The position numbers and the translations under genes are program-made. From NCBI GenBank assembly GCA_017506865.1, contig JAFCMP010000257.1, forward strand, positions 682,001 to 746,000: a DNA stretch of 64,000 nt. Reading direction: 5' to 3'. Numbering within the stretch: position 1 is the stretch's first letter; each line of letters opens with the position of its first letter. Of this stretch, positions 14,388 through 63,905 are shown piece by piece. Origin of the DNA: Tribonema minus. Its lineage: Eukaryota; Sar; Xanthophyceae; Tribonematales; Tribonemataceae. The notes under the pieces were generated by a model. The model worked only from the letters and a program-made list of their open reading frames with translations. It had not been told where the DNA came from and ran no database searches.

Positions 14388-14390
14388 AGG
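14318..14390. repeat. Inverted copy of an internal pol segment
   Basis: About 70 bp is the reverse complement of 13,756-13,828 (shared core TGTGACACTACTTCAATGG). It supplies the apparent N-terminus of the Pol frame and joins directly to an inverted LTR fragment at 14,391. Confidence 0.85.
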
Positions 14391-22009: not shown

Positions 22010-23478
22010 ATGGCAGGCAAGGAGGGCGAGTTCCCGGGTAAGGCCGCCATCAAGCGCCAGCGCCGCAGGGTCCTTCGCGACAACATCCAGGGCATCACCA
22101 AGCCGGCCATACGGCGTCTCGCGCGGCGCGGCGGCGTGAAGCGCATCAGCGGCCTGGTCTACGACGAGGCGCGCGGCGCGCTCAGGACGTTCCTTACGGA
22201 CATCATTCGTGATGCTGTGTCGTACACGGAGTACTCGCGGCGCGCAACGGTGACAAGGTGCGTGGCTTGAAGCTTTGTGTTGAAGTACGCTTGAGCCGCG
22301 CGACGCGCTCAAGACATTTCTGGCGGACATCATTTGTGATGCTGTGTCGTACACGGAGTACTCGCGGCGCACTACGATGACATGGTGCGTGACTTGAAGT
22401 TTTTGTTGAAGTACACGCGGCGCGCTCAGGACGTTTCTCGCGGACATCATTCGCGATGCTGTGTCGTACATGGAGTACTCGCGGCGCGCAACGGTGACAA
22501 GTTGCGTGACTTGGAGCTTTGTGTTGAAGTATGTTTGAGCCGTGCGACGAGGCGCGCGGCGCGCTCAGGACATTATTCGCGACGCCGTCTCGTACACGGA
22601 GCACTCGCGGCGCACCACGGTGACGTGGTGCGTGACTTGAATTTTGTGTTGAAGTACGCGCGGCGCGCTCAGGACATTTTTTGCGGACAACATTCACGAC
22701 GCCATCTCGTACACGGAGCATTCGAGGCGCGCGACGGTGACGTGGTGCACTACTTGAGGTTTGTGTTGAAGTATGAATCAGCCGCGGTTAGGTCATGCAT
22801 ACACGGAGCGCTCGCGTCGCGTTACCGTGACGCGGTGCGTGACTTTGAAGTTTGTGTTGAAGTACAGATCAGCCGCGGTAGAGTCATGCATAACTGGAGC
22901 ACTCAACGGTAACGTGGTGCGTGACCCTGAAGATTGTGTTGAAGTACGGATCAGCCGCGCGGTTAGTTTGTGCACGGCTGACGCTCCGAGCGTCTGTGTG
23001 GGCAGCATGCTGGCTATCATGTTGAATTGATTGCTGTCTCAACATCAACTCTGAAGTTGAAAGTGCCACCAGGACTGTTGTCACACACAGCTGCATCAGT
23101 CCTTCAAGCATTGTGCTTGCTGACATGGCATTGGGTTGGAAAAGGACTTGCTAGCTCACATGGTTTACAGTACTGCCTGTGGGCCAGGCTTAGAGGTGGG
23201 GTTGACATGAGAGGTTACGTGTGCAGTTGCTACATCATGGCCTAATGCGATGTGCTTCTAGCATGTCACATCATTCGGTGGCAGATGGCAGTTGCGACCG
23301 CCGCTTGTGAGTCACAGGCTCCATACCAAGTGGCTCCACTGACAACCTGCAACTTGACGTTACAATCCTGTCCTGATCCTCATTCTAGTTTTCTGCTCTT
23401 GGTCTCTACTGTTGCAGCATGGACGTAATATACGCCCTGAAGCGACAGGGGCGCACGCTGTACGGCTTTGGCGCGTGA
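22010..23478 (+). CDS. Histone H4, divergent variant with one intron
   Basis: Core nucleosome protein. Exon 1 is 22,010-22,257 and exon 2 is 23,418-23,478. Splicing AG|GTGCGT to GCAG|C restores the reading ...ATVTSMDV... and gives 102 residues against 103 for standard H4. The fold region is clear: [20 protein letters not shown], then GGVKRISGL, then [18 protein letters not shown] at the end. The N-terminal tail is aberrant. It begins [15 protein letters not shown], lacking the GRGKGGKGLGKGG acetylation tail, and the usual KRHRK before VLRDN is KRQRRR, so the Lys20 methylation site is replaced by Arg. An intron and no obvious histone 3' stem-loop suggest a replication-independent variant. The 1.16-kb intron is filled with decaying copies of the exon 1 end. 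A decayed paralogue is possible, but the frame is fully open and every core position I checked is sensible. Confidence 0.88.
22258..22965 (+). repeat. H4 intron: about six tandem copies of the exon 1 end plus 5' splice site
   Basis: Following the true donor at 22,257/22,258, junction-like copies recur with donors near 22,381, 22,494, 22,627, 22,746, 22,842 and 22,917. Each repeats H4 codons around [15 protein letters not shown], the 'gtgcgtgactt' donor and a 'tgttgaagta' tail. Copies become shorter and more diverged with distance. All lack an intact frame or an exon start, so they are decoys and not genes. Confidence 0.9.
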
Positions 23479-25375
23479 GCGGACGGCCACTTTGAGGATG
23501 CTTTCTCCCTAGGGGTACCCCCCTCCTTGTGCCCCCCATACGTGCCATTCTGGGGGGGGGGGGGGGGGGTCCGGGGGACAATGAGAAAGCAGCTTGGAAT
23601 TGTGGGCGCGCGGCAGAGCAAGATCGTTGGCATGGCTCCCCCCTCTACATGTCCACCCATAGGGGCCAATAGGGGGGGTGGGGGAGGGGGGAAACGAGGA
23701 AGCAGAGTGAAGTGTGGACGCGCGGCAGAGTGATAACGTTGGCAGCAGCGGCGTGGCGCGCGCTGCAAGGCTGCGGCACGTGGACAAGCGGCCACAGTGG
23801 CAAGCAGCATACTATGACAAGCAGCGCAGCTCAATCTGAGGACCATGTGGGCGGCCTGCACTGTAAGACGCAGCCACTTGCAGCGCATGACCGGTCGAGG
23901 CGCATCGTTGGCACGGTGGCCCCCAAAATGAGCGGTGAAAATGGGTGGGTGGGTGGGGGGGGGGGGTATGCAAGTGGGATTGATACCTGCCTGGGGCTAC
24001 ACCTCAAGGCCAAAACGCATCTGCCATGGACTGCAATTCTAGGGTTGGAGAACATTGGGCAAGGCGTGAAGCAGTCCGCACCATTGAGCGCCCATCAAGC
24101 TTATAGACGTCAGAATTCGAGCAATTGAGATTGGAGAGAAGAAGACTTGGGGAAGAACCTATGGGTCTGCAGGATGTCGAGGCGCTCAAACCATCTTATA
24201 GCTAGTGTGCCACAGTGCTGTGCCGGTTCTTCTTCCGTTTATTTTTTTTCCCTGCTGCTTTGTCGTGTTCTCTGCACCAGGTGCAGCGTGACTGCCTGAC
24301 AGGTTCAAGGTCATTGCATAGCATGCGATTGAGTAGGACTCTGTCACAACGGGCCTGGCCACAACTGACCGAGCATCCATACTCCATGCGTCTTGTTTTT
24401 TTCGCTGATTTTGTAAATGGATTGTATCTTTAGAAGTAGGAAACAATGCAGCCTTGAGTCGGGGGGGGGGGGTTGCGTGTTGTCATAATTGATGGGTCGC
24501 ACAGCACAAGACGCTTGGACTATTGGTATTAGTGTGATCGGAAAGCGGCTGAGCATCACCCTCTGACAACGCGCACACAATTTGTCAGGTAAGTGAAACG
24601 CAGTCGGGGACTGCAGCCAGCCTTGTTCTCGTATCAAAGCGAGAGTTGCAGCGCATGACGGCCCTGGAATGATAACCCAGCAGTAAATGGTGACTGACAA
24701 CTGGTTTTACAGCGCTGTTCTTGCAGTTTGCAGTACAAAGGCAACAGCCGTTGGATGTGCCGCAGAGGCGCCAGACAAGTTGTCGTGTTTGGACCTTTGC
24801 TGCAGACTCAGTCGGACTGATCATGAGTGAGCAAGTACCGGCCTGAACCCGCACACCTGTGCACTAGGTGAGGGTTGCATATTTTTGCCGTATACAGCTG
24901 TTCGGACAATGCGTGCACAGGAGCACACGACAAAATGGCACCTAACCCGAATGTAGCCCCAACCCTGTCAGGGTAGCAGGCGCTGCGGCAAACGACTGCC
25001 GTGTGCAGCAAACAAACATGGGAGGTGCAGCTTTACACCACACTGATCAGACCATTGTCAAGCATCGATGGCCAGCGGAATACACCGCAGTTGCTGCGGC
25101 AGGTATGAAATCCGATCCAAACCAGCCATATCTCGTGTATTTCTCTTTGTCCAGACAGCACTGCATCGGTCCTTCCCCCCTATCCCCTCAACAAACTACA
25201 ACACAAATCAGCGCTTCAGCATGGCCCCGGGCAGGCCGTGCGAACCGCATAAACTATTAGGCCACATCTGGCAACCCGACTCTGCCCCTGTAGAGAGATG
25301 GACGCTCGGATTCACAATCATGAATACACGAGTGCCCCTGAAGCGGCTGCGCGCAATTCACTTGTGTTTCAAACG
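23479..25375. other. Intergenic region between convergent genes; G-tract repeats
   Basis: This is the 3' flank of H4 and of the gamma-CA-like gene. It holds about two to three degenerate units (23,520-23,640, 23,641-23,760, and partly 23,880-24,000), each with a poly-G run followed by 'gcgcgcggcagag..gttggca'-type sequence. A further poly-G run lies at about 24,461-24,471. No gene was recognised. Confidence 0.4.
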
Positions 25376-28300
25376 CTAGACAGTGATGCCTTTCTTTGCA
25401 AGATCCTCGGCGTGCGTGAAGGCCATGTTGGCGGGGTTGAATTCGTTGACGTGCTCCTCCGAGAGGAGGAATTGCCGCTCCGCCTGCCGCGCAGAGCGCA
25501 AACAAGCGTGGTCAGGAACACAGAACACGAGCAAGTGCGTTCAGAAGTCATGATCTGCCGAATATTGCATTCAGCGAGGGCTTGCAGTAATTTAGCGCAT
25601 GTGTCGTGAATCATGTACACAGTGGTGAAGTTATATAGCCAGTGACGTGCCATTAGCGGAACCGCTGCACTGCAACTGCGTGGAATCAGTGCGCGAGGCG
25701 CACGCTGCACGTAGGCGTATGCATCAGTACAAAGCATTATGTAGTGATAGCCAGCGCCGTTTAATCACAGCATGCCAGCGCATCGGACCACGAAGATCAG
25801 TTAGTCAGTAGCCCCTCAAGCTAGTCTCGCGCCTCAAGTGGCAGTTGCGCACTGGCAGTTACAGAAGCGCGCGCGCTGGCGGTGGGCCGTCACCGAGGGA
25901 ACGCAATGCAATGTGATGGACGATGTTGTGGGCATGACACAAAGTTCAAGTCTGGCTTGAAGTCTGACCACCGTAGTACGTCACAATCAGAGGTTATCAA
26001 TCTCCCTCCACGTAAACGAGGCCCCTGCCATACGCCTTGTGATTCAACACAGGCCGCGCATCGCTGCGCCGCCGGGCTGGCGGGGACCACCTGCTGCAGA
26101 GGAGCGCTGCCACGCTAACCCTAAACCTAACCCTGATTAATGGCTCTGACCGTGACCGTTGTTGGGACATTTGACTAGGGGGTGTGCCACGGTAAATTCA
26201 CGCAAAACCACCTGCTGCAGAGGAGCGCTGCCACGCTCTTGACCCTATACCCTAGCCCTGACTAATGCTTCCAACCGTAAGCGTTGATGGGACGCTTGAC
26301 TAGGGATGTGCCGCAGTCAATTGACGCAAATCGACTCACCAACAGCACGTCGTGGCGCTATCTGACTGATTCATACATGAGCTTCATGTGAGCCAGCTTT
26401 TTGAGATGTGGTTGGTTTGTAAGGCTGTTTCATCCGCCGGCCGAGCGAGCATAGACTTCGTTGCGTTGGGGTTACGGTTAGGCAAGCCAGAGCGCCGGAA
26501 ACCAGGGTTAGGGTTAGGCAAGTCAGAGCGCAACTGTCTGAGCAACGCTCGGATTGCAGTGGCTGCTGATTGCAGTCACACGAGGCATTGCTAGACGAGG
26601 ACACCACTGTACACAGCCAGCCACCATCGGCAGAACATTCACATAGAACTGCGCTCACAATGTGGTTCTTTGTCTCAAGTAATGTCCAGTTGAGCGCTGC
26701 TGGACTCAACAGCTTTCACCATCTGTTGCACCAAACCATGATCGACTTGATGTGGTGCTGCGGTACTGCCATTTGTACGCAAATCACGCGGAGCGTGGCG
26801 CATGCATATATCATACATACCCGGTCCGCAGCACAACTCTAACCCTAACCCTAACCCTAACCCTACACAGCGCTGTACGCACGCTACTCACTCAATCGAA
26901 CGCAGCTCAAGCGCCCATGCACGTGCGTTGTTTACTCGACCGAACCCAGTGTACGGCGCAAACACTCCACCGCATGAGGTCAAGCATGATGCAACTCGTA
27001 CCTCATCTTTGAAGTTTGCAACGCTGTCGGAGTCGACGTCGCCAACATACTGCGCCGGGTTGCCCCCCCAGATCTGGCGCGAAGGCACCAGGCTGCCGGT
27101 GGTGAGGACGCTGCCCGGCAGCAGAATACTCTGCTTCTCCATGATGGCACCTGCAGTAGTTGAAGTACATGCGCGAAGCGACTTTCAGCCCCATTCAGGA
27201 AGCATCTTGATTGTTCCTTCCACGCTTCACACGTCCGTGCTTGCAGAACACACGTCAGGGCTGGGATCGGCTCAGCACTGTGGCTTTGTACGCTGATTGA
27301 GCTTGATCACGTGCGCGCTCGGCAGCACGAGGTGGTGAGTGAAATTCACAACACTTCAAACTTGAGGTTCGCTGGCAAGGACCTTAACTTAACCCTAAAT
27401 GGTGCACGTTCACCGCCCACACAACGTGCAAGGCGGCGCACGCATTCAGAGCAAATAAATGCTCTATTTGCCTTGCAGTTTCTGCACAGACACCGCGCGT
27501 GCCTTGCGATACAAGCGCCGCGCTAGCTTCGACCCTTGCCTAAACCTCAACCCCCTGACGTTACGCGGCACACGGGAAGGCGCTCCCTCGCGACTCACGT
27601 CGAGCAGTAACACACTTGGTGTCGTCACAGGCAGTCTGTACCTGACCACTTGTCGTACGACACAGTGCTGCAACGCCACCTTGACACCTGAGGCTAGTGT
27701 GAGAACGCCCTTGCCTAACCCTAACCCTAGCCCTAACTAAGCACTGAGTGTCGCCACAGACAGCCGGTACAAGACCGACCACAACTGTTTGTAAGACGCC
27801 AGCTCCACCATGGGCACTGACATTAGCATGACAGCAGTGAAAATGATGCTGTGCCCGCTGCGGCATGGCGCTATTGTCGCAATGTCTTTGCAGCGTGTCC
27901 TCGCGCTGCACAACTTCAAACTTCACAATTGAAGTTGACGTGCCCGTCTGCGCACAGCAATCGAGCTGTCGCGTCAAATGTGCAGCTGGCATCGCCAAGG
28001 GCTTGATGTAGACATCCTCTCACGCTTTTAAAAGCTCACTTGAAAACATTGGACGGGAGGCAGCCAAGACTTGCAGCGCTCTGTTTGTGCGAATGCTACA
28101 GTATCCGCAACAATGTTGCAGACTCGCCCTCATAGATGACGCTGCCTCCTGCCGTTTTCGCACTGCGTTGGCCCACCCTGGAAGTCACACAACTTCATAA
28201 TGAAGCTACTCTTGCAGTCACGCAACTTACACTTGAGACTCACCTTCGCAAGCGACGCTGCCCCTGCCGATCTTGGTCGCCCACTCTTGAAGTCACACAA

Positions 28301-31300
28301 GTTTCACATTCTGAGCTACGAAGCCACCCAACTTCACATGTGACTCACCTTCGCAGACGACGCTCCCGCTGCCGATCTTGCTTACCCACTCTCAGAAACA
28401 CATAAATCTCACATTGACGCTACTGTTGAAGTCACACACCTTCACAATGGAGACTCACCCTCGCAGACGACTCTCCCCCTGCTGATCTTGCACTGGTCGC
28501 CCACTCCTGAAGCCATAACAACTTCTACGTTGGAGCTCCTCTGCCACTCTTGTAGTCACATGGGACTACACTTCAAGTTATGCTGTGTGTGTGTGTGTGT
28601 GTGAGACTCGCCCTGGCAGACAACGCTGCCCCTGACAATCTTGCACTGGTCGTCCACTCTCGAACTCACACAACGTCGCATGGTGCTACTCTTAAAGTTA
28701 CTCAACTTCACATGTGACTTACCTTCGCAGACGACGCTCCCCCTGCCGATATTGCACTGGTCGCCCACCATGCACGACGTCAGCGAGCACCCCTCCTCAA
28801 TCACCACGTAGTTGCCAATGACCACCTTGGCGGGGAAGCCAGTGCTCAGCCTGCGTCATACCAGCACACAAAGAGAAGGCAGAAATGACATCAGACAGGA
28901 GGTACAACAGTAGGGAAGCCAGTGTTCAGCCTGCGTCATATTACTAACACACAACAAGAAGGCAGAAATGACATCAGGCATGAGGTACAACAGTGGGAAA
29001 GCCAGTGCTCAGCCTGCATCATATTAACACACAAATAGAAGGGAGAAAAATGACATCAGACAAAAACACAACAGCTAATAGTGTCCAAGGGTACTGAAGG
29101 GGTGATAACATCAGCCTGTTCGCGTTCCTCGCCGCCAGCACACTACAATTTTTAAAGCAAGTACAGGCAAAGGTGTTTGTGACAAGATCAACAGCAATCA
29201 ACCTTGTTCAGCGGGATTTTCAACTTCAACAAAAACAGTGGGGAAAAAACGTGTCACCCTACCTGCGCTAACACTGGCATTGCGCCTGGGATCAGCGACG
29301 TTCCCCGACGATGTGATTTGTCACATGCGCAACTCACAAATACGATGACTTCAAAGTATTGCAACGATTTCAAGAGCACACACTCCAGCTCCCAAGTGCG
29401 CATGAACACCGGCTTCTCCATCCTGCAGCAACTTGATCATTGTCCGCATGCTGCTATTGATGGCAGTGCTTGCCCCCTCATTGTTGAGCTCTACGACTCC
29501 CTCGCTTCCAACAGCGCGGTAAGGACAGGCGTGACCTGGGTTAGGTTTAGGAATAGGTAAAGGGCTAGGGTTAGGTCGCTTACTTGGCAACAGTGTTGAT
29601 GACGGTCTTGTCGCCCACGCTGCTCAGCCCGCCCACCTGCACAGGCACGTCACCGGGCGCAATAGGACAGGTCAGAGTTGAACTTTGAGCCAATATTCGA
29701 ATCGACCACACTGCAGCCCGCCCACCTGCGTAGGCACGTCACCGCGCATGTGGAAGAAGTGAGAGTTGAACATTGAGACAGCATTGAATGTTAATGGCAG
29801 TTTTGCTGTCTACGGTGCTCCATTTGCCAAGGCACGTCACCGCACAATTGGGGAAGTGAGAGTTGAACATTGTGACAGCATCGGTGATAACGGTCTTGCT
29901 GAGCACACTGCGCAGCCCGCTCACCTCAGCAAACAGCAAGCACAGGCACGTCACCGCGCGCAATGACAAATGAGAGTGGATGTTAGTTGAAATTGAAAGC
30001 ATGATCGATGCAGCAAGCTCTGCGTGTTTGCTGCACAGTGTTCGCCCAGACATGATTCGGCAAACCGGCACTACTTTCCCAGCTTTCATCAGGTGACCCT
30101 GGTGCCACCGGTGTGCTCATCAGCACAGCAGCCGTACATTCAAGTGCGCAAGAGAACACTACATCGAACCAACATGCAAGTTGATGATGGTACTGTTGCC
30201 CTCTCCTGTGTGCATGCTGCACAGTCGCCGCCTGAGCACGCAAGTACTTGAATCATTCACGTGTTTGAACCTTCGTCTGTCTTACGCGTTATGTTTTTCT
30301 TTCGTTGCGCAGGCAGCCGCATGTCTTACCACTTCACAGTTCAATATGTTAATGACAGCGGACGTATCGTACTAGCAGAAGATCGTGGCCCTGAGGGTTA
30401 GCCAAACCCTGACCTTAGGGCTAGTTCAACCCTAACCCCAAGTCGGTACTCAGAAACGGGACATTTCATGCATGTCTCGTATGATATTGGGTAGGGGCAC
30501 CGTACCGCGCAGATGGGGCCGTGCATATTGCAGTTGCAGTTGTGCTGATGCGACACAAATGGGAATGCTAAAGATGTGTGTGCGTAGCTTGCTGCGCGCT
30601 GGGCGGACGCATCTGCGCACTCCCGCAGCCTGACAGGAGCATGGGGCCTTGTGAGAATATATCGCTGCAGTGCATAAATCATGGGCTAGTTTACTGCGGC
30701 ATTTGATTCTGATCTGCCTTTGATGATGACAGCAGAGCGAGCTACAGTCAGTGCAGCCTGCACTACACTAGACGTGCAGAGGAAACTTGAGGATTGTCAC
30801 AAATGGCATAGACGTCTATCCGATACTGCAGCAGAGCATCTTGCACTCACATGTATGGAGCTCTTATCTCCGCGCAGCACAGCCCCATACCAGATAGTTG
30901 TCATATCCACCAAATCTACATCCCCAACCACGGATGCATTGGGAGCCACGAAGCAGTTTTCAAAGTCCTTCCTGGGTGCCTTGCCATTGAGGATCATGAG
31001 GGGTCGGTGGCGAGCGACTGCGAGGGACAGCGAGCATAATGTCCGAGAGTTTCTTGGCTCAGGAAACAAGCAGGAAGAGCGATGCAGCAGGCATTTGGCA
31101 AATTGCAGCTGCGAGCAAGGCAGTGTGTCGCAAAGCTGGTGCGGCATCAGCACTTGATGATCGCATTTGCCGGCTGCATGGCAAAATCACAGAAGCCGAT
31201 TATCACGTTGCACAGGATTGCATGCAAAAGGCATTGCAAACACTTGCATCACACTGGCGCACACGGGCGGAGCGTAGGTGGTGGTTTGTGCTGCTGCTGT

Positions 31301-31427: not shown

Positions 31428-31542
31428 CCTCCTGCTGCTCTCTCTACATTTTTTTTTCACATCCACGCGCGATGATGCTCACTTGTAATGCGGCGCGTCA
31501 CGGCCTCGATGATTCGATGAGCAGGAGACGCTCCCGAAAAAA
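31428..31542. promoter_or_regulatory. Shared 115-bp divergent promoter region
   Basis: The gamma-CA-like gene starts leftward at 31,427 and the unknown gene starts rightward at 31,543. The spacer is too short for two separate promoters, so bidirectional transcription is likely (inference). It contains a T9 tract at about 31,449-31,457. No clear TATA box was seen. Confidence 0.55.
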
Positions 31543-34879: not shown

Positions 34880-37800
34880 CTATGTGAGCTCAAACCCCGC
34901 GCCAGCGCTGATCGCATATAGCAGCTTCTCGCGCAGCGTTTCGCGGCTGTCATAGCGTGGCAGCTTGAGCAGGTTCATGCACGTGGCACTGCTTGGGAGC
35001 TTGTTGCCGCGTTCGCCGGACTCAACCTGTAGAAAATGCGAAACAGAGTTGAAGATGCCGCGAAGGTGAGGTTTCTGTTGAAGTAAATATATCAGAATTG
35101 AAAAGCACATCTGTTTAGAACTTCTTCTCAAGTGCCGAAGGTTGAGCATGCACGTTACACTGCTGGGCAGCTTGTTGCTGCATTCGCTGGACTCCACCTG
35201 CAGGTTGAAGGCGGAGTTGAAGATGTGTGACGGGAGGTTTGTAGAGGTGAAAGAGTTGTTGCGTTCATCCGAAATACTTCAAGCACACGCTACAGTGGGG
35301 GTTATGCAGCTTGAAGCACATGATATCTCTGTCAGCCCTCGCCTATTGTATGCAAAGGTAGTATCTCTAGCAGCCCTCGCAATCGTCAACGGCATGCCAC
35401 AAAAGCACCTGTAGTCTGTGGTATCACACATGGCATACACCTTGAACTGGGCTTTTGTGCCCCCAGCGAGAATGAATGGATGTACTCTGTTTCATCAAAG
35501 CATGCGCTCTCACGTGCTGTATGCACGTTGGCGGCGAGAGGTGCTTGAAGCCCGCTGCGAAGTACATGCAAGCATCTACACGCTCACGATGAATGGATGT
35601 CAAAGTCTACACTCATAGACAGCGGAACATGTACTTTTGATTAATGCTCGCTCAGGGCGCGAAAAAGCCCAGGTGATTGGCATCTAGCTGTAAGGAATCT
35701 ACATGTCGTATGACAGTCTGAAAGTGTCGCAACGACAACCACTACTTCAAAGTTGTAAATTCAGACGCAGAAGTGCGCAAAGTCTCTTGTTGTAACTTCA
35801 GACGCAGAAGTGCGCAAAGTCTCTTACCTGTTGTATGCACATGGACGGCGAGAGGTGCTAAAAGCCCAGCAGCTGCCGCGAGCACGACGTGACATATTCG
35901 TACCTCGAAAAACATGGTACATAACACTTCTACATGCGGCGAGTCTAAACTTCAAGAGACAGCAAGAGCAAAACAGGTACTTCAGCGTTGCAACTCAGGA
36001 GATATAAGAGTGCAATAACTCGTACCTGTTGTATGCACATGGGTGGCGAGAGGTGCTTGAAGCCCAGCAGCGGCTGGCGCGAGCACGAAGTCACAAACTT
36101 CAAGAACAGTGCCTGCTGCGCGGGTGTGAAGTTAGCGATGATGTCCCAGAACCAGTGCATCACCGGCTGGCTCTCGTGATACCCGCCGCCGTATGTCTGC
36201 AAAAATCCAGGACCACAGCAGTGACCAGTGAGCAGCGGCTTTCACTTCTTGGTTGAAGTAATGTGAGATGAGGTTAGCTACTTGGTTGAAGAAGTGCGCG
36301 GTCGGCATGTTGAGGTTGAGGTCGATTGTTGCGCTCGCCGTCGATGAAGCTGCAGCTCTTTACTTCAAGCCTTCAGCTTCAATGCATGACTCACCATGCG
36401 CGCGCATCCGCAATGTCAATGCCGCCCTCGCCGTCGCCGCCCACGAGGCGATGGCTCACGCCCTACTTCAAGCCTGAAACTTCAAATTAAGAGCCGCTGC
36501 AGCTCATGTCCCACCTACAAGCTGCAACTTCAAGCCGCAACACACCGTGTGCGCACGCAGGTCCGCGATGTCAATGCCAACCAGCCGTTGAAATTCGTAC
36601 TTCAAGCCTCAACTTCGGCTTCTACTTCCAAACTAACTTCAATCCGCAACTCGCCGTGTGTGCGCGCAGGTCCGCAGTGACGCCTCGCTCGCCGACAAGC
36701 CGCTGCTCGCGCCCTACTTCAAGCCTGCGACTTCATTGCGTGACTCACCGTGCGCGCACGCAGGTCCCCGACGTCGATTTGCCGACCAGCCGTTGTGCTC
36801 TCACTTCAAGCCTCAACTCCGAGCGCAAGCGCGCGCAGGTCTGCACTGTCGATGCCGCGCACGCCGCCGACGAGCTGCTGCAGCTTACTCCCTACTTCAA
36901 GCCTGAAAATTCAAGTCATGATTAACTCGAAAGCTGTGCCCTACTTCAAAACTGCAACTTCAGTCCGCAACTCACAGTGTGCGCGCGCAGGTCCGCGAAG
37001 TAGCTCGCGCCCTACTTCAAGCCTGCAACTTCAAGCCACGACTCACCGTAAGCGCGCCAGGACCGCACTGTCATCCTACTTTCAGGCTGCAACTTCAATC
37101 CGCAACTCACCGTGTGCGCGCGCAGATCCGCGATATCAATCCTGCGCTCGCCGTCGCCGCCGACGAGCCGCTGCAGCTCGCGCGGCGCAAAGAGGCGCAC
37201 CCACTGCGTGGGCACGAGCGCGCGGAACCCGCGCAGGAACGCGCGCGTCTGCCGCGCCGTCGCCCTGTCGAGGCGGTAGTGCGCGAGCAGCAGCACGTAG
37301 CTCGCGACGTTCGCGTTCGTCACGTCGAGCGCGCGGCCGCCGGGGACCAGGTCCACCACGCGCTGCTGCGCACTGCCGCCGCCGCCGCCGCCGCCGGTGT
37401 TGAAGTTCTGGTGCGCGCCGCCGCCACCGCCACTGACACCTTGCTGTGCGCTGCTGCCGCCGCCGCCGCTACTGCTGCCACCAATGACACCCTGCTGCGC
37501 GCTGCCGCCGCCGCCGCCGCCGCTGAAGCGCGCCGGCGCGAGCGGCGGCAGCGCGACGCTGAAGGTGAGCGCGAGGTCCGCTACGTCCTGGCCCGGCGTC
37601 GCGGCGAGCGCCTTGAGCTGGACGAGCGACCTGTAGAGCGCGGGGTCTAGGGTGAAGAGGTCGTCGATGATGTTGTCGCGCCCCAGCAGCGTGTTGAGGA
37701 AGGTCGGCGAGAGCTGCGGCTCGACCAGGATGCCCTCGAACACGGCCTTGCCGAGGATGGAGCCCGCGAACTCGAAGCGCGCGAGGGTGTCGGCGTCGGC

Positions 37801-40800
37801 CGTGTCAACATCGGGGCTCGGGTAGAGCAGCTGCTCGTCGGTCGCCTGGAACAGGCCCAGGGCGGGGTCGAAGGTGCACTGCAGGCCGAGGAAGGGGGGG
37901 GGGGGGGGGGCATGAGGTGAGTAAATGGGGTCAGAGGTGCGCTGCACACAGGGGCGGGGGGGGGGGGGGGGGGCATGAGGAGTACGGTGAGTAAACGGGG
38001 TTGAAGGTGTACTGCCCGGGGGGGGGGGGGGGGGCATGAGGAGTATGGTCAGAAAACGGGATCGAACGTGCACTGCACACAGGGGGGGGGGGGGGTTCAA
38101 AGGTGCACTGCAGGGGGGGGGGGGGGAGGGGGGGGGGCATGAGGGGTATGGTGAGTAAACGGGGTCGAAGGTGCACTGCACAAGGGGGGGGGGGGCATGA
38201 GGAATACGGTGAGTAAACGGGGTTGAAGGTGCACACTGCACGCAGGGTGGGGCTGGGGGAGGAAAGGAGCAAGCGATGGTGAGTAAACGGGGTCGAAGGT
38301 GCACTGCAGGGGGGGGGGGGGGCGGGCACGAAGAGTACGGTAAGTGAGAAGTTCGATGCTTCGCAGGCGGGCGAGCGGCACAAGAATGCGGCAAGAGTGA
38401 AAATCTGATGCTATGCAGGGTGTGTGGTACATGCTTTCTTTGCCAGCGGGTGATCCGGTTAACAGCCCAGCTCTGGCACAGTGCTCAGCCAGGGCATCCA
38501 GTAAAGCAGTTAAATTTGCCATGCACCTCTCCGCCACTTTGAGCGTGCTGGTGTCCATCGACGCTGTTGTTGCCAAACTGCAGTAGTGCTGTTGGCGGCT
38601 GCTGAAGCCAGGCTGGCCACACAGCCCATGATGGGCACCAGCGCGATCAAACAGGCGGACAGGCGCATGGCAAAGCTAACTGCTGGCGCTGAATGCCTGG
38701 GCTCAGGTGCAGTGTGCCAGGGGGGGCTGTGTACACTGGCAAAGCACTACCGCGGTTTGGCAACAACAGGGTCGACAAAGAGCCATTTGCGACATTCAAC
38801 CAAGAGCAGTCTGATGCCTCGCGAGCGTTCGGCGAAACGGCGCCAGGTGGTGTGGTGTGGGCCTTCAAACGGCGGCCGACGTGCGGCTGTTCGAAATTCG
38901 TCAGGAGCAGCCGAAGGCGGCTGAGGAAACAGAAAGGGGGTGAACACACTTGAGACTACCATGGTCAGAAAGCTCGGAGTCATAAACGGCGACGTCGTGG
39001 AACTCCCTGAGTACGCCGCCGCCGACGACTCTTTTGACACTTCAACTGCAACATTTGAAGTTCAGCTCTGTGTAGTTCAACTGACCTTGGTGAGCGCATC
39101 GATGAGCTCCTTGAGCACGCCGCCGCCAACTCCCTAAAACTTCAACTACAACATTCAAAGTTCAGCTGTGTAGTGCAACTGACCTTGGTGAAGGCATCGC
39201 TGAACTCTTTGTGAGTGCATAAATGAATTCCTTGGGTCCTTGGGCCGCCGCCTTGAAACTTCAACTACATCCTGCAAAGTTCAAACTGACCTTGGTGAGT
39301 GCATCTATGAACTCGTTGAGTACGCTGCCTCCGACTCCCTCGAAAATGCAACTTCATCCTACAAAGTTCAACTACTGACCTTGGTGAGTGCATCGATGAA
39401 CTCCTTGAGTACGCCGCCGCCGTCAATCCCAGCCTCCTCCATGCCATGCTCGTTGACGAATGTGACCTGTTGCGCGCGCGCAGAGGATGGGGCGGGGGGT
39501 CAGTAGGGGAGTCACCTTGGAAGTAGTGCGGACGGCGTTGGTGAACCTACCGAAGTGCGACTTTGTTCCGTGTATGGCGCACATCAGAAGCGAGGGAAAC
39601 AGGCCGGACGCTCCAGTGCACCTACGGGACTGCAGACAATGCAGCCGTATCGACCGTGGCGCAACCTCTAGCGACGTGCAGTGCACGCGGGGGGCTGGAG
39701 ACACTTGGTACTTATTAAAACACTGGAAAAAGGTAGTTTGCAACATGGAAAAGCATGAACGGGAAGCGGCCTGCAATGCCCCTGGTGCGCGCCGTACGCG
39801 GCAGCAGTACACAGTACAACACATTACACAACGCAGTACAACACAGTACACAACGCACTGCTCGTCGCTCGAGGACATCGCAAAGGCTGCCAGAGCGCTG
39901 GGGCCGCAGCCGTGTTTTTTCTTCACCATGGTGATGCAGCGTATGGCCTCTTAGGTCAGAGTTAGGGTTAGGACTCGCGGCTGCGGACGGCTGGTGTGAC
40001 GGGATGGTGGGTTCACAATCAGAGCCACCACCGGCCCGGGAAGAAGGGGCATGGATCACTTGCCAACAAGTTTGAGAACTGAGGTCCAGAAAATCTTGCC
40101 GCCAACAGAGCATGCACCGCATACACACAATGTTACGTGCACACCCTAACCCTACTTGCGTGCCCCGCTCCAAACCCTAACCCCCTGCGTAGCTCAGACT
40201 CATGTTTACGTGCATCGGTAGCCAACTGTGCAACACGCAATCTAGACGTAGCCGTAGCCCTAGCCCCGACCCTAGCGCTAACGCCAGCTGGTCCCGCTTG
40301 ACCAGCACGCATTGCAACTGCCGCTAGACGAAGGCGCTGGCCTCCGCACACGAAAACTCGCGTCAAACAGGAGCGCGAGCCCCTGTTGAGCATCACTGCC
40401 AAAGGGGGCAACACCTTTAGATTCCAGAATTCATCTCTGAACTTGAACATGAAGTGACATATGCAGGGCTTGAGCCCGACGACGCCCCCACCTACGTCAA
40501 TCCGGCAGTTACGCACCTGTAACCGCCGCCGCAGCCCCGCGCCGAGCCCCCCCAGCGCCTCAAAGCTGTCGTCAAAGAGGTGAGTGCGGCGCACGCGAAT
40601 ACGCTGCGTGTCCCCCGGCCGCCCCCCCCACGCCGCCATGGGCGCCGCGTGCGAGCGCTCTGCGTCCACGAGGCGCCTGAAGATGGCCACGCGCTGCTGG
40701 AAGGGGACCACCTGTGAAGGGGGGGTTTCATTTTGGGTGGGGGGGGAGGGGGGGAGGGGCGTGGGGTGGGGGGGGGCATGAGCAGGCTGCCAAAATGAAG

Positions 40801-47345: not shown

Positions 47346-50300
47346 ATGAATTCAGCTGTGGCGGAAGCTTCAGCTCCTCTGCTGAAGCCTCCCACCTCTT
47401 TCACGGATATCGACAGCACCTTCAGGCCGTACCTGAGGCTGACGGGCAGCGCCGACCGCGGCAGGAGGGCCTACGATGCTGTCAGGAGCGCAGTCTGTGG
47501 CATTGTGCTGCTGCCGCTGCGCCTGGCAACTTTGATGGTTTGCTTGCTGCTGAGCTACCTAGTGGCCAAGCTGTCGATGCTGGGTCTGGAAGGCGATGAT
47601 CTGGCAGCAGTCAATGCCTCAGACACTCACAGCCCTCTGAAACCTCGGCCATACTGGAGGATTCTGCTGCTGCAGCCAATCGGGCCGCTGGCGAGGGGGC
47701 TGCTATGGAGCCTGGCGGTATGGCGCATCGATGTCGCTGCGCATGATGGGGAGAGTGTGCAGTCAGGGATCCGTGAGCAGGGCACAGCTGCTTTGTCACC
47801 CATGGTAATTGTCAGGTATGCGAAACACCACCTTAGGACATGACTAGGAAAGGACTCGATCCTCGGAGTACCGGTGCTGTGAAGCTTCTGTTGTGGAGTG
47901 CTTCATGTCGCTCATACGTCAAATGTAGTGCTTTGTCCTGATTTGAATATGGAATGCACAGCAGCATTACCGCCTTGGATTCAGTGCCATTTTCCACCAG
48001 ATTTGCCCAGATGCATGCGCAGCATCTGTTGTGCTGCTTGAGAGGGTTTCTCTCCCAGGCAGGCAGCGCACCTGCAGCAAGGTGCACAGTGCTTACATCT
48101 GCCTGCTGAGTTCTGGTATGCTGTCTAGCCAGTTCTGGCGCAGGCTACTATATAGTGCTGAGCACTGCAGGTGCAGTAGTAGCTAGGTATGCTAATTAAG
48201 CCAGTTCTGGCACAGGGCTGCTTTTCAGTACTGAACGCTGCAGATGCCAGTGTCGGCGTGGCACGTCAACCCACTCAAAGGCTTGCAGACAGCGCACTCC
48301 GTGTGCATGTCGCTGTTTGGTGTGCTGCTCCGTTCTCTTGTGCCATAGCAAATAGTTGGTTTTTTTGCACGCGTGACATGGTGCTTGGCAGACATCTGTT
48401 GCGCACGGCATGTATGGCATTATCATCATATGTTGAGCAACGCGGAGGCACAGCGTGGCTCGTTCGCTTGCCCTGTGCAGCGCTGAACCCAACCACTTTA
48501 TCGACGCTCTCGCCGCGCAGCAACCACACGGGCTACCTGGACATCCTGGCGATCATCGCGGTGCACGGACCATGCGCATTTGTGGCCAAGCATGCCATCA
48601 GCGCCGTGCCGTGCATCGGCGCCGTCGCCGCTGCCATGCAAGCGGTGTTTGTGGGCAGCGGGTGCCCCGCGGCAGACGCCATCGCTCAGCGCGCGCGCGC
48701 CGCGCACGCCTGGCAGTTACGCCAGTTACAGCAGGCCGGCAGCAGCGCCAGTTGCCCTTCCGGCAACAGCGGTGATGACTCCGGTCGCGGTTCTGTCTGC
48801 GGCCGTAATGGTTGCGGCGGCAGCGGAGGCGGCAGCAGCTGTGACGCGAGTAGCAGTTGTGGCGGTGGCGGCAGCAGCAGCAGTTGTGATGGCGGCAGCA
48901 GCATGGGTGGCGGCAGCTGCCGCAGCAGCGGCGGCGGCGGCGGCGGCATGATAGGCAGTGCTCAGCGAAAGCTTCGAGTGCTGCTGCAGCGGCTGCGTGA
49001 GCCGACGTACCTGCCGCTGGTGATCTTTCCGGAGGGCACCACCACCAACGGGGCCGCCATGATCCGCTTCCGCACGGGGGTGTTCCGCGCACAGGTGAGC
49101 AGCTGATCGCTGTCACTGCCGTTACCTCACTCTAACCCTAACACGGGGGATCTCCGCACACAGGTCAGCCACTGATCGCTGTCACCACCATGACCCTAAA
49201 CCTCGCACACAGGTCAGCAGCTGATCGCAGTCACCGCCGTAGCCCTGACCGCAACCCTCGTCTATTCCTAAGCCTACCCGCGCAGGCACGACGACGCGCA
49301 CCTACATACCTTTGCTTGCTTTCGTCAGCGCTCCTCGATGAGCACCGGCGGCTGCGCATGCATCAGACGGTGGCGTCGTTGTGTTGTTGGCACGCGTTGA
49401 CTCGAGTGCTTGAAGTGCGCAAAGCATCACTTGTCATGCGTGCATCACGCCTCAAGCTGCTGTAGTGTAATGCGCGCGCGCGCGGTCGTGAGACCTGTGC
49501 GAGGTGCGAGCCGTGTCCTAACCCTAACCTCCCAATAGCCCTAATCTAACCCTAACCCTCAGGTGCGAGCCGTGATCACGCCGCGTTGCGACGCTGATGA
49601 AACGGCGGCGCAGCAGCGATGCCACACGCACATGGCTCTCGCCAGGCAATGCAGATCCCATGCCAGCGCCGTCATCAAGATGTACACCCTTGCGTGCGCA
49701 GCTGGCTAGACCCATAAACCCCGATGCAGCATTGCTCAATGCTCCCCCCCCCCCCCCCCCCCCCCCCTCGTGCCACCCCCCTTGCAGGTGCCCGTACAGC
49801 CGCTGGTGATCGCGTTCCCGTTCCGCCACTTCAACCCCTCCTGGGAGACGATCCACTTCCACCACCACCTGCTGCGCATCATGACGCAGCTCACGTGCGC
49901 GTGCAGCGTGACGGTGCTGCCGCCCTGTCGGCCCAGCGAACCCCCCCTCCCGAAGCCTGTCTGCACCGACCAATCAGGAGCGGAGGGGGGGCTGGGGGGG
50001 GGCGTGGCGGGCCAATCGGACGTTGCCAGAATAGCGGGCGAGCAGCAGCAGCAGCAGCGAGGCAAAGACGCATCGCTCAACAACTCAGCACGCCCTCCTC
50101 TTGACAACGTGGCCAGTGACGCTGGGGTCTCTGCCAGGGGGCACTGCTCAGCAGCAGTGGGGGGCGATGGCAAGCCCTATGCGGCGCGGTTCGGGGTTGA
50201 TGCCGCGCGACTAGGGCTAGGGCTGGGGCTGCTAGGGGGCGCGCGCGAGTACGCGGACGAGGTGCAGCGCGCTATGGCAGCAGTGCTCAGGCAGGGGGTG

Positions 50301-53370: not shown

Positions 53371-56300
53371 ATGAACTTCAAACAGCCTGCATTCACCGTG
53401 GCGGAGCGGACAAGGAGCGGCTTCACGGACGACGGGATCTGCGATCAGAGGTTTGAGTACAGTGTTAACCGAGCCAGGAGCTCCAGGCCTCACTGCAACA
53501 GGTTAGTGAAAAAATTCCCTGCATCACTCCAACTGCCACAGCGCATGGACAAACAACGCAAGCAGACTCCGTGCAGTGCCTTGAGATCAGGCAGCATATG
53601 GCATCCCGATTGAACGTGCTCTATCACAGCTAGTCAGAGAAGCACTCGCGTGTCACCAGGCCTTGTTCCCCGTTCAGCTGCGCCCCCATGTAGCAACTGT
53701 AGCATTAGTTGCCCTTCCAGTGAGCTGCGAGAGTCGCAGCCATGACCACGATTATGAAAAGCCTCGTTGTGCAAACGCTTCCAGTCTGGTTGACTGCTTC
53801 CTCAAACGCCGAGTCAACCCGCCTTGTGTGCGTTGTGCACACAGAAGCTTCCCCGCAGATGCCGAAGCAGGCAGCCCCGACTTGTTTGCCGAGTCTTTGT
53901 CGAGTGGTATTTGCGTGTGTTGTGTTCACTGCCGTCCATGCAAGTGATCAAGGTTCAGCGAACAGCTTACGCTAACCCACAGCGAAGTACCTTCTGAGCA
54001 CTTGAATTGGTCGACCAACTGCCACCAACAGCTTACTGCCGTGTCAGAGAAACGCACTAAATCTAACTGTAATGGAGAGTAGGGCCATTATTGCAGCAGC
54101 AGATCCCTTCCTCCGCTTGATGCGTGTTCCAGTCCCAAGTCAGTCAACTGCCATCAATGCCCCCAGTGCAGCCACAGCTTGAAGTAGCTGCTTGACGAGG
54201 TCCCACTTCTTGAATGCTCACAACTGGTGCCGTGGCAGCGTGTGAGCTTGTACCGCGCTGAATCCTGTACACAGCTACACAGGTCCCTCTTGAATGCACG
54301 CACCTCGTGCCGTGACAGCTTGCGAGCTTGTACCGTGCTGTGTCCTGTGCATTTCAACAAAGCAGCTGTACAATTCCACAAAGCAGCGCGGTACAAGCTC
54401 GCAAGCTGTCATGGCACGGGGTGCGTGCGTTCACAAAGGACCTCGTGAAGCAGCTACTTCAATCAAGCGGCAAGCACAAGAGCCGCCTGAGCAAGGCTGC
54501 AGGGAAGCTGGCGTCGTTAGGAGAGGCCTCACGCCTAGCGGCCCGACATGATAGGGCACGCCAAATGAGCGTTGATGTGTATACCTATATATACATGTAT
54601 ACTAATAAAAATAAATGTTGACGCTCATTTGGCACGCCTTATGAAGTCGCGTCGTCGGTCCCGAGACCTCCCCTAATGTCGCCAACTTCCCTGCAGCCTT
54701 GCTCAGCCTCCTCTTGTGCTTGTATCGCCACCGACTTGAGCGCTGCTGCCGCTTGATTGAAGTCAGCTACGGCCGTCGTGCTGATTTTTCTTTCACGCGT
54801 AAATACATTATGCATGTATACATGTACATGCTGGCGATGTCGTTTAGAAGTGATGGGCTATGCGCATCGAGACACTTTCAAGGTGTTCACAAAGACACAT
54901 GTAGATTCTGGTTGCAAGTCCATGGACATCCACGATCTGGGGTTTTCCGCACCCTGAGCGAGAAAGAATATATGTTACATCCTGCTCACCTCTGTTTGTG
55001 AGGCCATGGCTACCATGCCTATCTTCACCACAGTGCCAGCCGTTGATTGTCGCAGCACCACGTGCCCCAGGTTTAGGACGACAGGGAACTTGACCGCTAT
55101 CTCCCACCCACGTGTACCTTACTCCAACTACCGTGCATGCCCTCATGATCAAATGGATCCTTGTGAACCACATTTTAAACATACAGTGCCACCCGTTGAT
55201 TGCCGCAGGAGCGCGTGCCCGAGCTTTTTTTGCGGAGACGGGGGCATCAGCGCCTCGGCACCGACAACTTCAAGGCCCCGTAAGTGCTGAGCGTTGACAT
55301 GTTGCCCTAACCCTAACCCTAACGCTTTATTAGAGCTGGCATCCATGACAGCCATGATGTGAATCTGGACGTGAGTTCGATTTCATGCGATGGAAGCTTG
55401 GGCCGTAGTTTTGTGCAGCAATGGCCTACCCTCTGTAGAGCGGCGGTCTCACGTGCCTCAGCTGTTTATATGCATGAAAACGGTAAATGTAGCATAAAAA
55501 ACGTAAATGTAGCACTGGTGCCGAGCTTCTCAGCACGCACACGCGCCCTCCTTGCCACGGGACTCGGTTCATCGCCGTGTTCAAATCTGATGACTCCCAG
55601 TAAGGGTAGTATGCCTCAGCTGTTGAAAGTCATCATCAATTGGTGAGTTGTCCTCTAATAAGTGTGCCGGTCTGCTCTCCCCTGCAGGTTTTCCAAGTTC
55701 CACTGCTTGAGGCCCGGCTGTGTGAGTCGGCAACAAGTTGAGGTGAGCTCGGGACTTCAATTCTGGAAGTTTAGCTCGTCATGTTGGCTCACTGCACAAC
55801 AAAAGCTACACAAATTATTTTCATTTCCAATTCTTGCTGTTCAGAACTGTGCTTGGGCAAGCGCTGCTTTGATGGAAATATTTCGTTTGCAACAGGTTCA
55901 CTTGTTGTGACGTACTCCAGGCTTGCGCACGGCAGTGATTTCCGCACAAAATAATGGGATGAATTAAGTGTATGGTTGAAGAGCTTCTCAGCCTTAGCAG
56001 GTGAAAGTGCATGCGCAAATGCAAAAATTTTATTGAAGTTAACCTGGGCTAGAAGCGCATCTTACCTACACAAGGGTCTGACAACGTTTTTTTTTTCAGA
56101 TTTCTCATTTCGATCTTATTCATGAAATGAATATAATGTCATTTGCAATGCAAGCTTTCTGCAACGTTTGTCAACACGTCGCAGAGGACTACGGGTCTCT
56201 GCGGTTGAGAGCCAACAGCGGCACAGATCACCCCTTGCTGCTCAAACCGACGTGATGATAAGCAAGTTTGGCTCCATGTGCTCAAGGCATCTGTGCGTTG

Positions 56301-61775: not shown

Positions 61776-63715
61776 TCACACCGAGTTCTGCACGCCCCCC
61801 TGCAGCAGCCACGCGCGCGCAAACTCATCGCTGCCGACCGGCTTGAATATGGCGCGCAGCCCTCGGCTGTTGCCGCCGTCGCCGCCACCGCCGCCGCCGC
61901 CGCCGCCTCCGCCGCCGCTGCTGCCGTCGGCGGTGCTGCCGTACGCGCTGTTGTAGGCAGCGACGAGAACGGGAGAGCCGTCTCTGCTGCCGCCGCTGGC
62001 GAGGCTGGTGGCGATGCTGGTGGCGCTGGTGCTGCCGGCGGCGTTGAGCGTTGCCAGCAGGTTTTTTAGGGGTTGAGCGCTGCTCTCGGCGTCGGCGGGT
62101 TCGATGAAGACTAGGTCCGCGCGGTCGCGCTGCGCCGACAGGAATGGGCGCCCTTCGCATTCGCAGGGACAGAGTACATGTAAAATGCATAAATCAGCTG
62201 CTGGTGTACATGTGCTTGAAGTATGTGTGTATGCGCAAGTGTGTGTGAAGCAACACCGTTTTTTGAATTACTCTGACTCTGGCTCTCGAGTACGTCAAGT
62301 AGACGAGGTCCGCGCGGTCGCGCTGCACCGAGAGGAATGGGCGCCCTGCGCAGCGGTATGTATGTATACACAGTCGTCAGTGTATGCATATATACTTCGG
62401 TAATACTTCTAGTCTACCTCACTGGTAAAACTGATACATTTCAGATGCTTTGTGAAGGATTGTACATACAGAGCGTATGAAGATATTGCATTGAACGTTT
62501 GTGGGTATGTATGTATGCGGGCCGCACAGCAGCGTGCTTGCATACTGAGCTGATAAATCGCGGCGACCTTAAGACTGCGCGTATACACACTGCAGCATTG
62601 GGCAGTCCTTGGAGCACTTGGCAGTACAACGCACTTGTTCATGCATTTTGACACGAGAATGGCCTGGATGCTGATGCTGCTTCCTGAAGCTGCGTTCAAT
62701 TAACAGCGTTCACTGCGTAGTGGCTCCCATGTGTGACCTCCTGTTTGCGACCGACGCTTGAAGCAACGCACTGTACTGCATAATCGCGTTTCAGCATAGT
62801 AGTGCGTCACGCAACACGTGGGGTACGTATCTCCCAACCCTCACCGCACCCCTCATCCACTCATGCAGCGCACCCTCACCTTTGCTCAGGAACAGCGACA
62901 TCAGCGCCACGGCGACTGTATTCTGATCTCAACCCTACCGCTAGACCTCGCTAGCGGTGCTGTGATGGCACCCAACCTTAATTCCATCCCCAAACTATTC
63001 TTAGAGCGATGCCCTCACCATCTACCCACGACCCTGCTCACCTTTGGTCAGGAACAGCGACGTGAGCGCTGCCGTCATTCAATTCTGACCTCATCCTACC
63101 CCCCCAACCACCCTCAACAACAGCCAATATCCCTCGCGCTTCCCTTCCGTCAGGAACAGCAACATGAGCGCCGCCGTGAATCAATTCTGACCTTGTCCCA
63201 CCCCCCCAACCAACCCTAGAAACAACCACTACGCGGCGCCCCCCCTCACCTTCGGTCAGAAACAGCGACGTGTGCGCCGCGGTGATCTCATTCAGACCCC
63301 AACACCGCTAGACCTAAGCTGGCTTTATGCCACTCCAACCCTAGTAACATCCCGCAACTATCAGCCAATACCCAGCGGCGTCACGACTTGATTCTAACAT
63401 CATTCTACCCCCCCCCCAACCAACTCTAATAACAGCCAATACTCAGCGCGCTTACCTTCGGTCAGGAACAGCGACGTCAGCGCCGCCGTGATCACCGGCA
63501 CCGCCGCGTGCGGCTGCCCGCTGAGCACCGTCAGTATCAGCGCCGACGCGAACGGCGTGCGCGTGACGCTGACGTTGAGCGCTGCCGCGAGTCCCATGCA
63601 AACTACCGCGCGTGACGCTCCTACTGCGGCGAGCGCTGTCACCGCGGTGTGTGGCAGCAGCGCCTCGAGGGCGCGCCCCGCCGCCGCCCCCGTGAAGAAC
63701 AGGGGGAAGATGAAC
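61776..63715 (-). CDS. CLC-type chloride channel/transporter, C-terminal part (5' end outside window)
   Basis: Voltage-gated chloride channel or Cl-/H+ exchanger family, an integral membrane protein. Two exons are visible: 63,456-63,715 and 61,776-62,152 (stop TGA at 61,776-61,778). The phase-1 splice GAA G|GG CGC closes the frame. Exon 1 here begins FIFPLFFTGAAAGRALEAL, the helix N region of CLC proteins, then helix O/P sequence AALNVSVTRTPFASALILTV and a last membrane segment AVPVITAALTSLFLT. The last exon starts GRPFLSAQRDRADLVF and becomes a Gly/Ser-rich tail ending LLQGGVQNSV. No CBS domains are seen, which makes it resemble prokaryotic-type CLCs. Upstream membrane helices must lie right of 64,000. 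Donor-side and acceptor-side arrays surround both exons, and a second acceptor with an alternative exon start is at about 62,357. Confidence 0.75.
62293..62358 (-). repeat. CLC last exon: acceptor-side copy (possible alternative exon)
   Basis: On the minus strand GCGCAG|GGCGCCCATTCC is followed by codons for GRPFLSVQRDRADLVYL, about 200 bp upstream of the true last exon's GRPFLSAQRDRADLVF. It has a good acceptor and the same phase, so it could be spliced as an alternative start of the last exon. Confidence 0.85.
62870..63455 (-). repeat. CLC helix exon: four donor-side junction copies
   Basis: Copies of the exon end (minus-strand codons for AALTSLFLTE plus GTAAGC-like donor) lie near 63,240-63,290, 63,140-63,185, 63,030-63,085 and 62,875-62,930. 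Linkers contain 'ccccccaacca' and 'caattctgacc'. Period is about 105-200 bp. Confidence 0.92.
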
Positions 63716-63905
63716 CTGCGGCATGGGGGGGCATGGGGGGTCAGTCAGTCAGTCAGTCAGTGTTGTTCGGTCATTTTCAATTGTTGTCAGGTCTTGACGG
63801 TGGCGCTCTATCACTCAACTGCCGCAGTTGCGGCCGTAGAGAACAGGGGGAAGATGAAGCTGCCGCACAGGGATCAGTCAGTCAGTTCAGTCAGTCAGTC
63901 AGTCG
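63716..63905 (-). repeat. CLC helix exon: acceptor-side copy with TCAG repeats
   Basis: 'gaacagggggaagatgaacctgc' (63,697-63,719, exon start plus acceptor) recurs as 'gaacagggggaagatgaagctgc' at about 63,842. Each is followed by a (TCAG)n microsatellite (63,740-63,760 and 63,877-63,909) and 'tgttgttcggtc..attttca'-type sequence. Confidence 0.9.

Follow-up and report, generated by a model that had tools for sequence, protein, structure and literature searches.

Background

How introns lengthen is an open question, often answered with transposons. Here we describe introns of Tribonema minus (Xanthophyceae) that contain tandem copies of their own exon edges together with the adjoining splice sites. 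The analysis started from a window of 64,000 nucleotides (bases 682001-746000 of contig C257) and was extended to further genes and to arbitrary samples of the same 158-Mb assembly, the one assembly analysed.

The closest described system is exon stuttering on avian dot chromosomes (Genome Biol Evol, February 2026, PMC12954441). In chicken, copies of part of an exon and its splice site were found in 236 introns, 190 of them among the 5,572 introns of dot chromosomes. The authors saw the phenomenon in birds, note something similar in GC-rich genes of gerbils without showing the data, and do not decide on a mechanism (PMC12954441). Our search of the open literature, outside of which most subscription journals lie, gave this one close precedent, and terms for stuttering returned it alone. 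The initial annotation of the window, which knew of no described system of this breadth, has to be corrected on this point.

The resemblance is close. In both cases an intron contains imperfect tandem repeats of the edge of a flanking exon together with the donor or acceptor that adjoins it, with an exon part of 20-187 bp in birds and 22-138 in Tribonema; in both, the coding sequence is intact, the copying is strictly local, and shuffled controls were used (PMC12954441). Three features of avian stuttering (PMC12954441), namely partial copies of the adjacent exon with its splice site, local origin and introns rich in imperfect tandem repeats, were found in Tribonema. However, the avian cases are concentrated on GC-rich dot chromosomes (PMC12954441), whereas in Tribonema 27 of 34 long introns are affected, and the GC content of the introns examined is 54%. 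We take the concentration on dot chromosomes to be peculiar to birds and not a trait of stuttering as such. The affected avian introns are highly length-polymorphic and purely intronic repeats are also described (PMC12954441); in Tribonema 33 of 42 repeat families span a junction. Descent from the exon edge, an age gradient and neutral decay are not described in the accessible part of the avian account (PMC12954441). New in Tribonema are the distant lineage, the breadth (most long introns examined) and the evidence on descent and age structure.

Three other systems share single traits. Intron gain by tandem duplication, including the potato RdRp case, also duplicates gene segments with splice signals, so that exon sequence ends up inside an intron (PMC4974935). 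There a new intron arises from an AGGT-bearing segment or an intron-exon unit (PMC4974935), whereas in Tribonema an existing intron lengthens and the sites in use stay. Gain through a duplicated exonic AGGT, to which the pattern had initially been related, does not describe it well: it looks like growth of existing introns, and the used GT and AG lie outside the copies. In Caenorhabditis F-box genes introns are likewise lengthened by local repeats of tens of bp, but the repeats described there lie within the introns (PMC8665587) and are not said to copy a splice junction, as those of Tribonema do. Introners also remodel introns widely within one genome, yet they are dispersed families present in many genes (PMC9860276), whereas the Tribonema exon-edge copies match their own gene only. 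With exon-edge probes and the self-similarity of the window, no dispersed family was found (no match in 184 cross-gene comparisons; 9 far against 73 close repeat pairs).

A local junction-copying process in most long introns examined, far from the bird lineage, makes three questions testable: what makes junctions prone to duplication, how splicing passes over decoys in which the genuine exon sequence is as long as 138 nt, and whether the fossils in introns might serve to date and polarise synonymous changes of the exon.

Results and Discussion

Exon edges recur in the adjacent introns

Gene structures were derived from protein homology; the HECT gene was placed by hand, the remaining genes by a custom spliced aligner. 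Junctions in weakly conserved stretches may be off; most kept junctions have consensus-like splice sites. Within the window a histone H4 gene, the seven 3'-most exons of a UBE3C-like HECT ligase gene and a gamma-carbonic-anhydrase-like (gamma-CA-like) gene were modelled, and outside it alpha-, beta- and gamma-tubulin, a divergent tubulin (C201) and three actin-related genes. This gave 53 introns (47 proposed by the aligner, 6 hand-placed in HECT), 41 of which, on eight contigs, were kept. Those dropped by eye before the probe test, for splice-site quality or alignment, came from gamma-CA (2/6), arp_C155 (4/6) and C201 (6/9). Two gamma-tubulin introns for which sequence was at first missing belong to the 41-intron set and not to the earlier set of 36; the latter, or its 29 long introns, was used for copy anatomy, repeat families, simulations, divergence, sharing, age and decoys.

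The last or first 45 nt of each exon served as a probe, which was aligned to the adjacent intron and to Markov-resampled versions of it, with a threshold of p < 1e-3 (in the window test p values came from a Gumbel fit to 60 resamples). The probe recurred in its own intron in 27 of the 41 introns, at the donor in 19 and at the acceptor in 16; in the first set of 36 introns the corresponding numbers were 24, 17 and 15. Copies were present in 27 of 34 introns longer than 400 bp and in none of the 7 short tubulin introns. Probes from the wrong (far) ends of the same exons gave no match (0/44), nor did exon edges tested against introns of other genes (0/184), and probes from exon interiors matched in 4 of 145 cases, two of them within long H4 and HECT copies. 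Among the window introns with homology-placed junctions, 9 of 11 carry copies at p < 1e-3 (H4 1/1, HECT 5/6, gamma-CA 3/4). Copies were also found in the gamma-tubulin, divergent tubulin and actin-related genes on five further contigs, i. e. on six of the eight contigs examined, the alpha- and beta-tubulin contigs being without.

When the window was compared with itself by BLAST, direct repeats formed 73 pairs at distances below 3 kb and 9 pairs at larger distances, and 5 pairs were inverted. Order-1 Markov resamples, one for each of 7 window blocks and 11 genome samples, contained no close pair, compared with 73 in the window and 95 in the samples. These results confirm that the copying of exon edges into introns is real and not confined to the window. 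The features in the window are as follows.

22010-22257, plus strand: first exon of a divergent H4 gene, from which the donor copies derive (spliced alignment to an H4 protein)
22258-23417, plus strand: H4 intron of 1160 bp, 62% covered by one donor-spanning repeat family
22293-22382, 22416-22501, 22545-22624, 22657-22741 and 22800-22831, plus strand: five decaying copies of the H4 exon 1 end and donor
28134-28657, minus strand: five donor copies in the gamma-CA-like intron 28722-27151 (identity 0.86, 0.93, 0.94, 0.80, 0.79)
28851-29924, minus strand: acceptor copies in the gamma-CA-like introns 30850-29637 and 29583-28851 (probes p = 2e-9 and 3e-6), one located at 29924-29885
34880-42856, minus strand: seven final exons of the UBE3C-like HECT gene, separated by 6 phase-0 GT-AG introns (hand-placed; HECT domain found)
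42856-42632, 41466-41353, 40711-40517, 39466-39380, 37878-37111, 36196-36026 and 35026-34880, minus strand: HECT exons
41941-42532, minus strand: three donor copies in HECT intron 1, with exon parts of 138, 107 and 71 nt
41045-41208, minus strand: two donor copies in HECT intron 2 (exon probe)
39000-39333, minus strand: four donor copies in HECT intron 4, each beginning 42-43 nt inside the exon
37879-38345, minus strand: acceptor array of HECT intron 4 with poly-C tract, TGCAG and exon start (acceptor probe p = 3e-4 and sequence reading); the acceptor-spanning family covers 467 bp
36397-36998, minus strand: five donor copies in HECT intron 5, with 86% of the intron in one family
35147-35894, minus strand: two donor copies and one acceptor copy (35197-35147) in HECT intron 6
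49086-49122 and 49204-49240, plus strand: donor-spanning pair of 37 bp, 118 bp apart, in an acyltransferase gene (BLAST E 1.4e-8)
62153-63455, minus strand: intron of 1303 bp in a CLC-like gene, with four donor copies and one acceptor copy

The H4 exon ends in a phase-2 donor (ACAAG/GTGCGTG, the slash marking the exon boundary), and its copies have, in order, identities of 0.88, 0.94, 0.77, 0.82 and 0.81; in HECT intron 1 identity falls with distance (0.91, 0.80, 0.77). The donor copies of the CLC-like gene have 89-90% identity and an exon part of 29-38 nt, and its acceptor copy, with 93% identity, lies 193 bp before the acceptor; a 25-nt copy lies upstream of the gene's other acceptor. The CLC label is that of the initial annotation and has no database match behind it; a Pfam search of the minus strand of 54-64 kb found no domain. 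Of the genes listed there, H4, gamma-CA, HECT and the CLC-like gene carry copies. The acyltransferase gene, in which the Acyltransferase domain was found, shows the pattern weakly, with the one donor-spanning pair (CACAG/GTGAGCAGC and CACAG/GTCAGCAGC, the donor placed by sequence reading) and one further, unplaced pair.

The last four HECT junctions agree with the deposited Tribonema minus model P0001, the best match of the HECT query (88% identity, 80% of the query aligned). At the protein level they also agree with Ectocarpus P0003. The start of P0001 lies in an intron, past an acceptor decoy but before the true acceptor (40834-40712, minus strand), and the model omits a 50-codon Gly/Ser/Gln-rich exonic stretch with internal repeats (37557-37408, minus strand); the cause is either mis-annotation or an intron of recent origin. 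The start of this public model is a warning that gene finders may be led astray.

Local repeats in arbitrary genome samples

Breadth was assessed in 11 regions of 10 kb (GC 52-61%), obtained from 20 places requested. All 11 contain local repeats, with 95 close direct pairs (less than 1.5 kb apart), 5 farther direct pairs and 8 inverted ones. Coding segments were called with a codon-usage model. Of 8 held-out exons it recovered 5, and in 31.5 kb of intron it made 4 calls; it was retrained with those exons for the sample scan. A called coding segment was touched by 49 of the 95 pairs (null 23.4 +/- 6.4) and a called coding edge straddled by 34 (null 13.0 +/- 4.1), values that none of 500 circular shifts reached in either case. 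Local repeats in arbitrary samples are thus concentrated at called coding edges. The initial view that the process is general, lengthens introns and leaves many decoys is supported.

Anatomy of the copies and decoy splice sites

As initially described, donor arrays consist of the exon end and the donor, and acceptor arrays of the polypyrimidine tract, AG and exon start. Most copies reach the exon boundary and many extend into the intron or the polypyrimidine tract. The exon portion measures 22-138 nt in donor and 22-117 nt in acceptor arrays. With the exon probe, 1 to 6 copies were found per junction, where 1-8 per intron had been claimed. Local direct repeats make up 39% of the bases of the 36 introns and form 42 families, 17 spanning a donor, 16 an acceptor and 9 neither; the smallest repeat spacing per junction family is 63-237 bp. 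Exon-side breakpoints are alike within arrays (mean difference 15 nt, against 28 when shuffled; 0/2000 shuffles as low). The same breakpoint recurs four times at 42-43 nt in HECT and six times at 80-87 nt in gamma-tubulin, and other arrays vary.

The decoy sites are largely preserved: GT is kept in 35 of 42 decoy donors (GC in 4 more) and AG in 19 of 21 decoy acceptors, where neutral decay, given some 8% change at each constrained site, predicts about 85%. Retention of the decoys is thus roughly what neutrality predicts, with no visible sign of purging or of protection. Homology places the functional site beside the exon body on both sides. Exon definition would pick the same sites, and we infer that it operates in Tribonema.

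Long poly-C tracts before CAG were seen at several acceptors and decoys (HECT near 37879; first exon of arp_C538; gamma-tubulin C124 at 8329 of the joined sequence). In the arbitrary samples, TTGAAGTT is 27 times as frequent as expected (strands pooled; examples are the H4 intron 22258-23417 and the HECT intron 37110-36197). In the curated introns it occurs in 13 of 36 and is strand-biased, with 0.92 per kb sense and 0.13 antisense. Its enrichment arises partly because duplicated units carry it, and it is possibly an intronic signal or repair filler. As a breakpoint motif of the duplications it was rejected, the distance to the unit ends not being constant by eye.

Descent and age of the copies

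The interpretation that we consider probable is that introns lengthen by repeated tandem duplication of segments straddling the junction in use, and that the resulting fossil edges decay about neutrally and are seldom duplicated again. On the donor side, an exon end and donor followed by the intron would become exon end and donor, then a copy of the exon end, a copy of the donor, and the intron. The junction beside the exon body would stay in use, with the acceptor side as the mirror image, and every round would add one fossil exon edge and one decoy splice site.

Differences between copy and exon amount to 0.091, 0.069 and 0.193 at codon positions 1, 2 and 3. This is close to what is expected of neutral copies and synonymous drift of the exon, where one lineage changes at positions 1 and 2 and two at position 3. 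Copy decay is thus about neutral, and the exon itself has drifted at its synonymous sites. In arrays with at least two copies, 100 of 205 differences at position 3 are common to another copy, compared with 16 of 145 at positions 1 and 2 (Fisher p = 2e-14, with copies that are not fully independent). Since a copy-from-copy origin would give positions 1 and 2 as much sharing, the shared differences are mostly old exon states retained by the copies. In simulations with the observed array sizes, sharing was 0.05-0.11 when duplication occurred at the edge only and 0.37-0.48 with slippage among units; the observed 0.11 fits the former.

Copy ages are heterogeneous within arrays (p = 0.0006). The nearer copy is the more exon-like in 58 of 85 untied pairs (58 to 27; 14 to 4 by arrays; permutation p = 0.004), and with codon positions 1 and 2 alone it is so in 57 pairs against 22. 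The statement that farther copies are more diverged is accordingly correct on average and not as a strict rule. The copies derive from the exon edge, not from each other, and nearer copies are younger on average. The low sharing, unequal ages and age gradient support the original proposal that units are added at the exon edge over time.

The same data bear on minisatellite-like polar growth, i. e. one founding junction-spanning duplication after which slippage or unequal exchange would involve the live unit and the youngest copy beside it, the two being alone in having the similarity that pairing requires. Register-keeping slippage predicts the alike exon-side breakpoints, and the observed gradient (0.68 of pairs) lies within the slippage simulations (0.63-0.69). 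However, the simulated sharing exceeds 0.11 even with strong similarity dependence (95% lower limits of at least 0.24), and the preference of the founding events for junctions is not explained. We regard this alternative as doubtful.

A possible role of the splice junction

Possibly, tandem duplications are uniform and neutral; those inside exons would be purged, and the junction pattern would reflect survival and the easier detection of copies of a conserved exon. Local tandem duplication is clearly common, the copies decay about neutrally, and 9 of 42 families span no junction, all of which suits this explanation. It was modelled by growing introns through uniformly placed tandem duplications, discarding exon-internal ones and applying the same detector. 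In 32 sets of 29 introns with a repeat coverage of 0.46-0.55, the junction-spanning fraction was 0.23-0.53, whereas we observed 33/42 = 0.79 at a coverage of 0.39 (binomial p = 5.5e-4 against 0.53). Young simulated arrays can exceed a fraction of 0.8, but this demands a coverage of at least 0.94, and settings with a mean above 0.55 already need at least 0.78. The model also predicts more sharing between copies (0.26-0.49, lowest of 50 sets 0.16) than the 0.11 found. Finally, copies would be expected at stop-codon edges, where in the few tested they are nearly absent. In the form simulated, uniform duplication is an unlikely explanation.

The start and stop edges of coding regions carried copies in 1 of 18 cases and splice edges in 35 of 82 (p = 0.002). 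The sole match, at the C155 stop (p = 4.6e-4), is weak, with 16 nt. A 'start' edge in C538 (p = 8e-5) was reclassified as a splice edge after the test; a poly-C TGCAG acceptor with a copy lies there. Five further start or stop edges were excluded for their short flanks, and 8 of the 18 tested belong to tubulin and intronless H4 genes without arrays. Small as this sample is, it suggests that the splice junction, beyond mere tolerance of non-coding DNA, is part of the cause.

Several observations weigh against repeated duplication of the junction in use. A cruder edge-only simulation gave a sharing of 0.20-0.23, above the observed value, and the age gradient is weaker than under strict serial addition (0.82-0.87 in simulations). 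In a stratigraphy test with shared synonymous sites the ordering was not significant (39 vs 22, p = 0.15). In the arbitrary samples 46 of 95 pairs touch no called coding segment, the caller finding only 5 of 8 held-out exons. The start and stop edges are few, and the count becomes 2 of 19 if the C538 reclassification is undone. Moreover, exon-edge copies are missing from 7 of the 34 long introns and from every one of the 7 introns, of 234-288 bp, in alpha- and beta-tubulin. The phenomenon is not universal, and its generality was at first overstated. These copy-free introns fit a transcription-driven cause poorly, unless selection keeps them short; tubulin genes being taken as strongly expressed, strong expression alone would be insufficient, unless selection removes copies there.

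A single burst, in which one event makes the whole array and the copies then decay independently, would account for the low sharing of changes and the constant unit register. As the sole process it is quite improbable, since ages differ within arrays and divergence is lower in the nearer copies, although bursts may have contributed to some arrays. An assembly artefact or a mobile-element family, for which no evidence was found, can practically be dismissed, because 65 of 70 copies have an identity to the exon of 0.75-0.96 (range of all 0.72-1.00) and are therefore not identical assembly duplicates, exon edges match no intron of another gene, and the direct repeats of the window are predominantly close.

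How the repeated duplication of junctions comes about is more speculative. As a first guess, breaks or template switches would be tied to the junction in use and would recur at the same breakpoints. The duplication may need a live junction, either engaged in splicing or attached to a full exon, because decoys, although nearly identical in sequence on both sides, rarely give rise to duplicates, and copies scarcely occur at coding edges that lack a splice site. We put this forward only tentatively; if true, introns would be roughly time-ordered archives of past exon ends. The decoys would be harmless if, as expected under exon definition, the sites nearest each exon are paired and extra sites farther away are ignored. 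Ectocarpus is a brown alga with kinship to Tribonema. Long introns (PMC12477816) and mammal-like exonic splice motifs (PMC4476162) are reported for it.

Other observations

The window H4 gene (22010-23482) is divergent and intron-bearing; the H4 loci L004 and L007, one of them nearly canonical, align without an intron. The comparison took in two more H4 loci, L005 and L008, on one strand. Telomere-like TTAGGG/CCCTAA stretches are present in the window (26504-26515, 26840-26863, 27716-27727, 49547-49558 and 55305-55322) and at the random loci L009-L019. In the arbitrary samples, words of this type reach 22-51 times their expected frequency; among the 36 curated introns, 9 contain TAACCCTA. An Rfam scan of the window gave no match. 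On the minus strand, an open frame of 1829 codons (8919-14408) reads like the polyprotein of a Ty3/gypsy-type retroelement.

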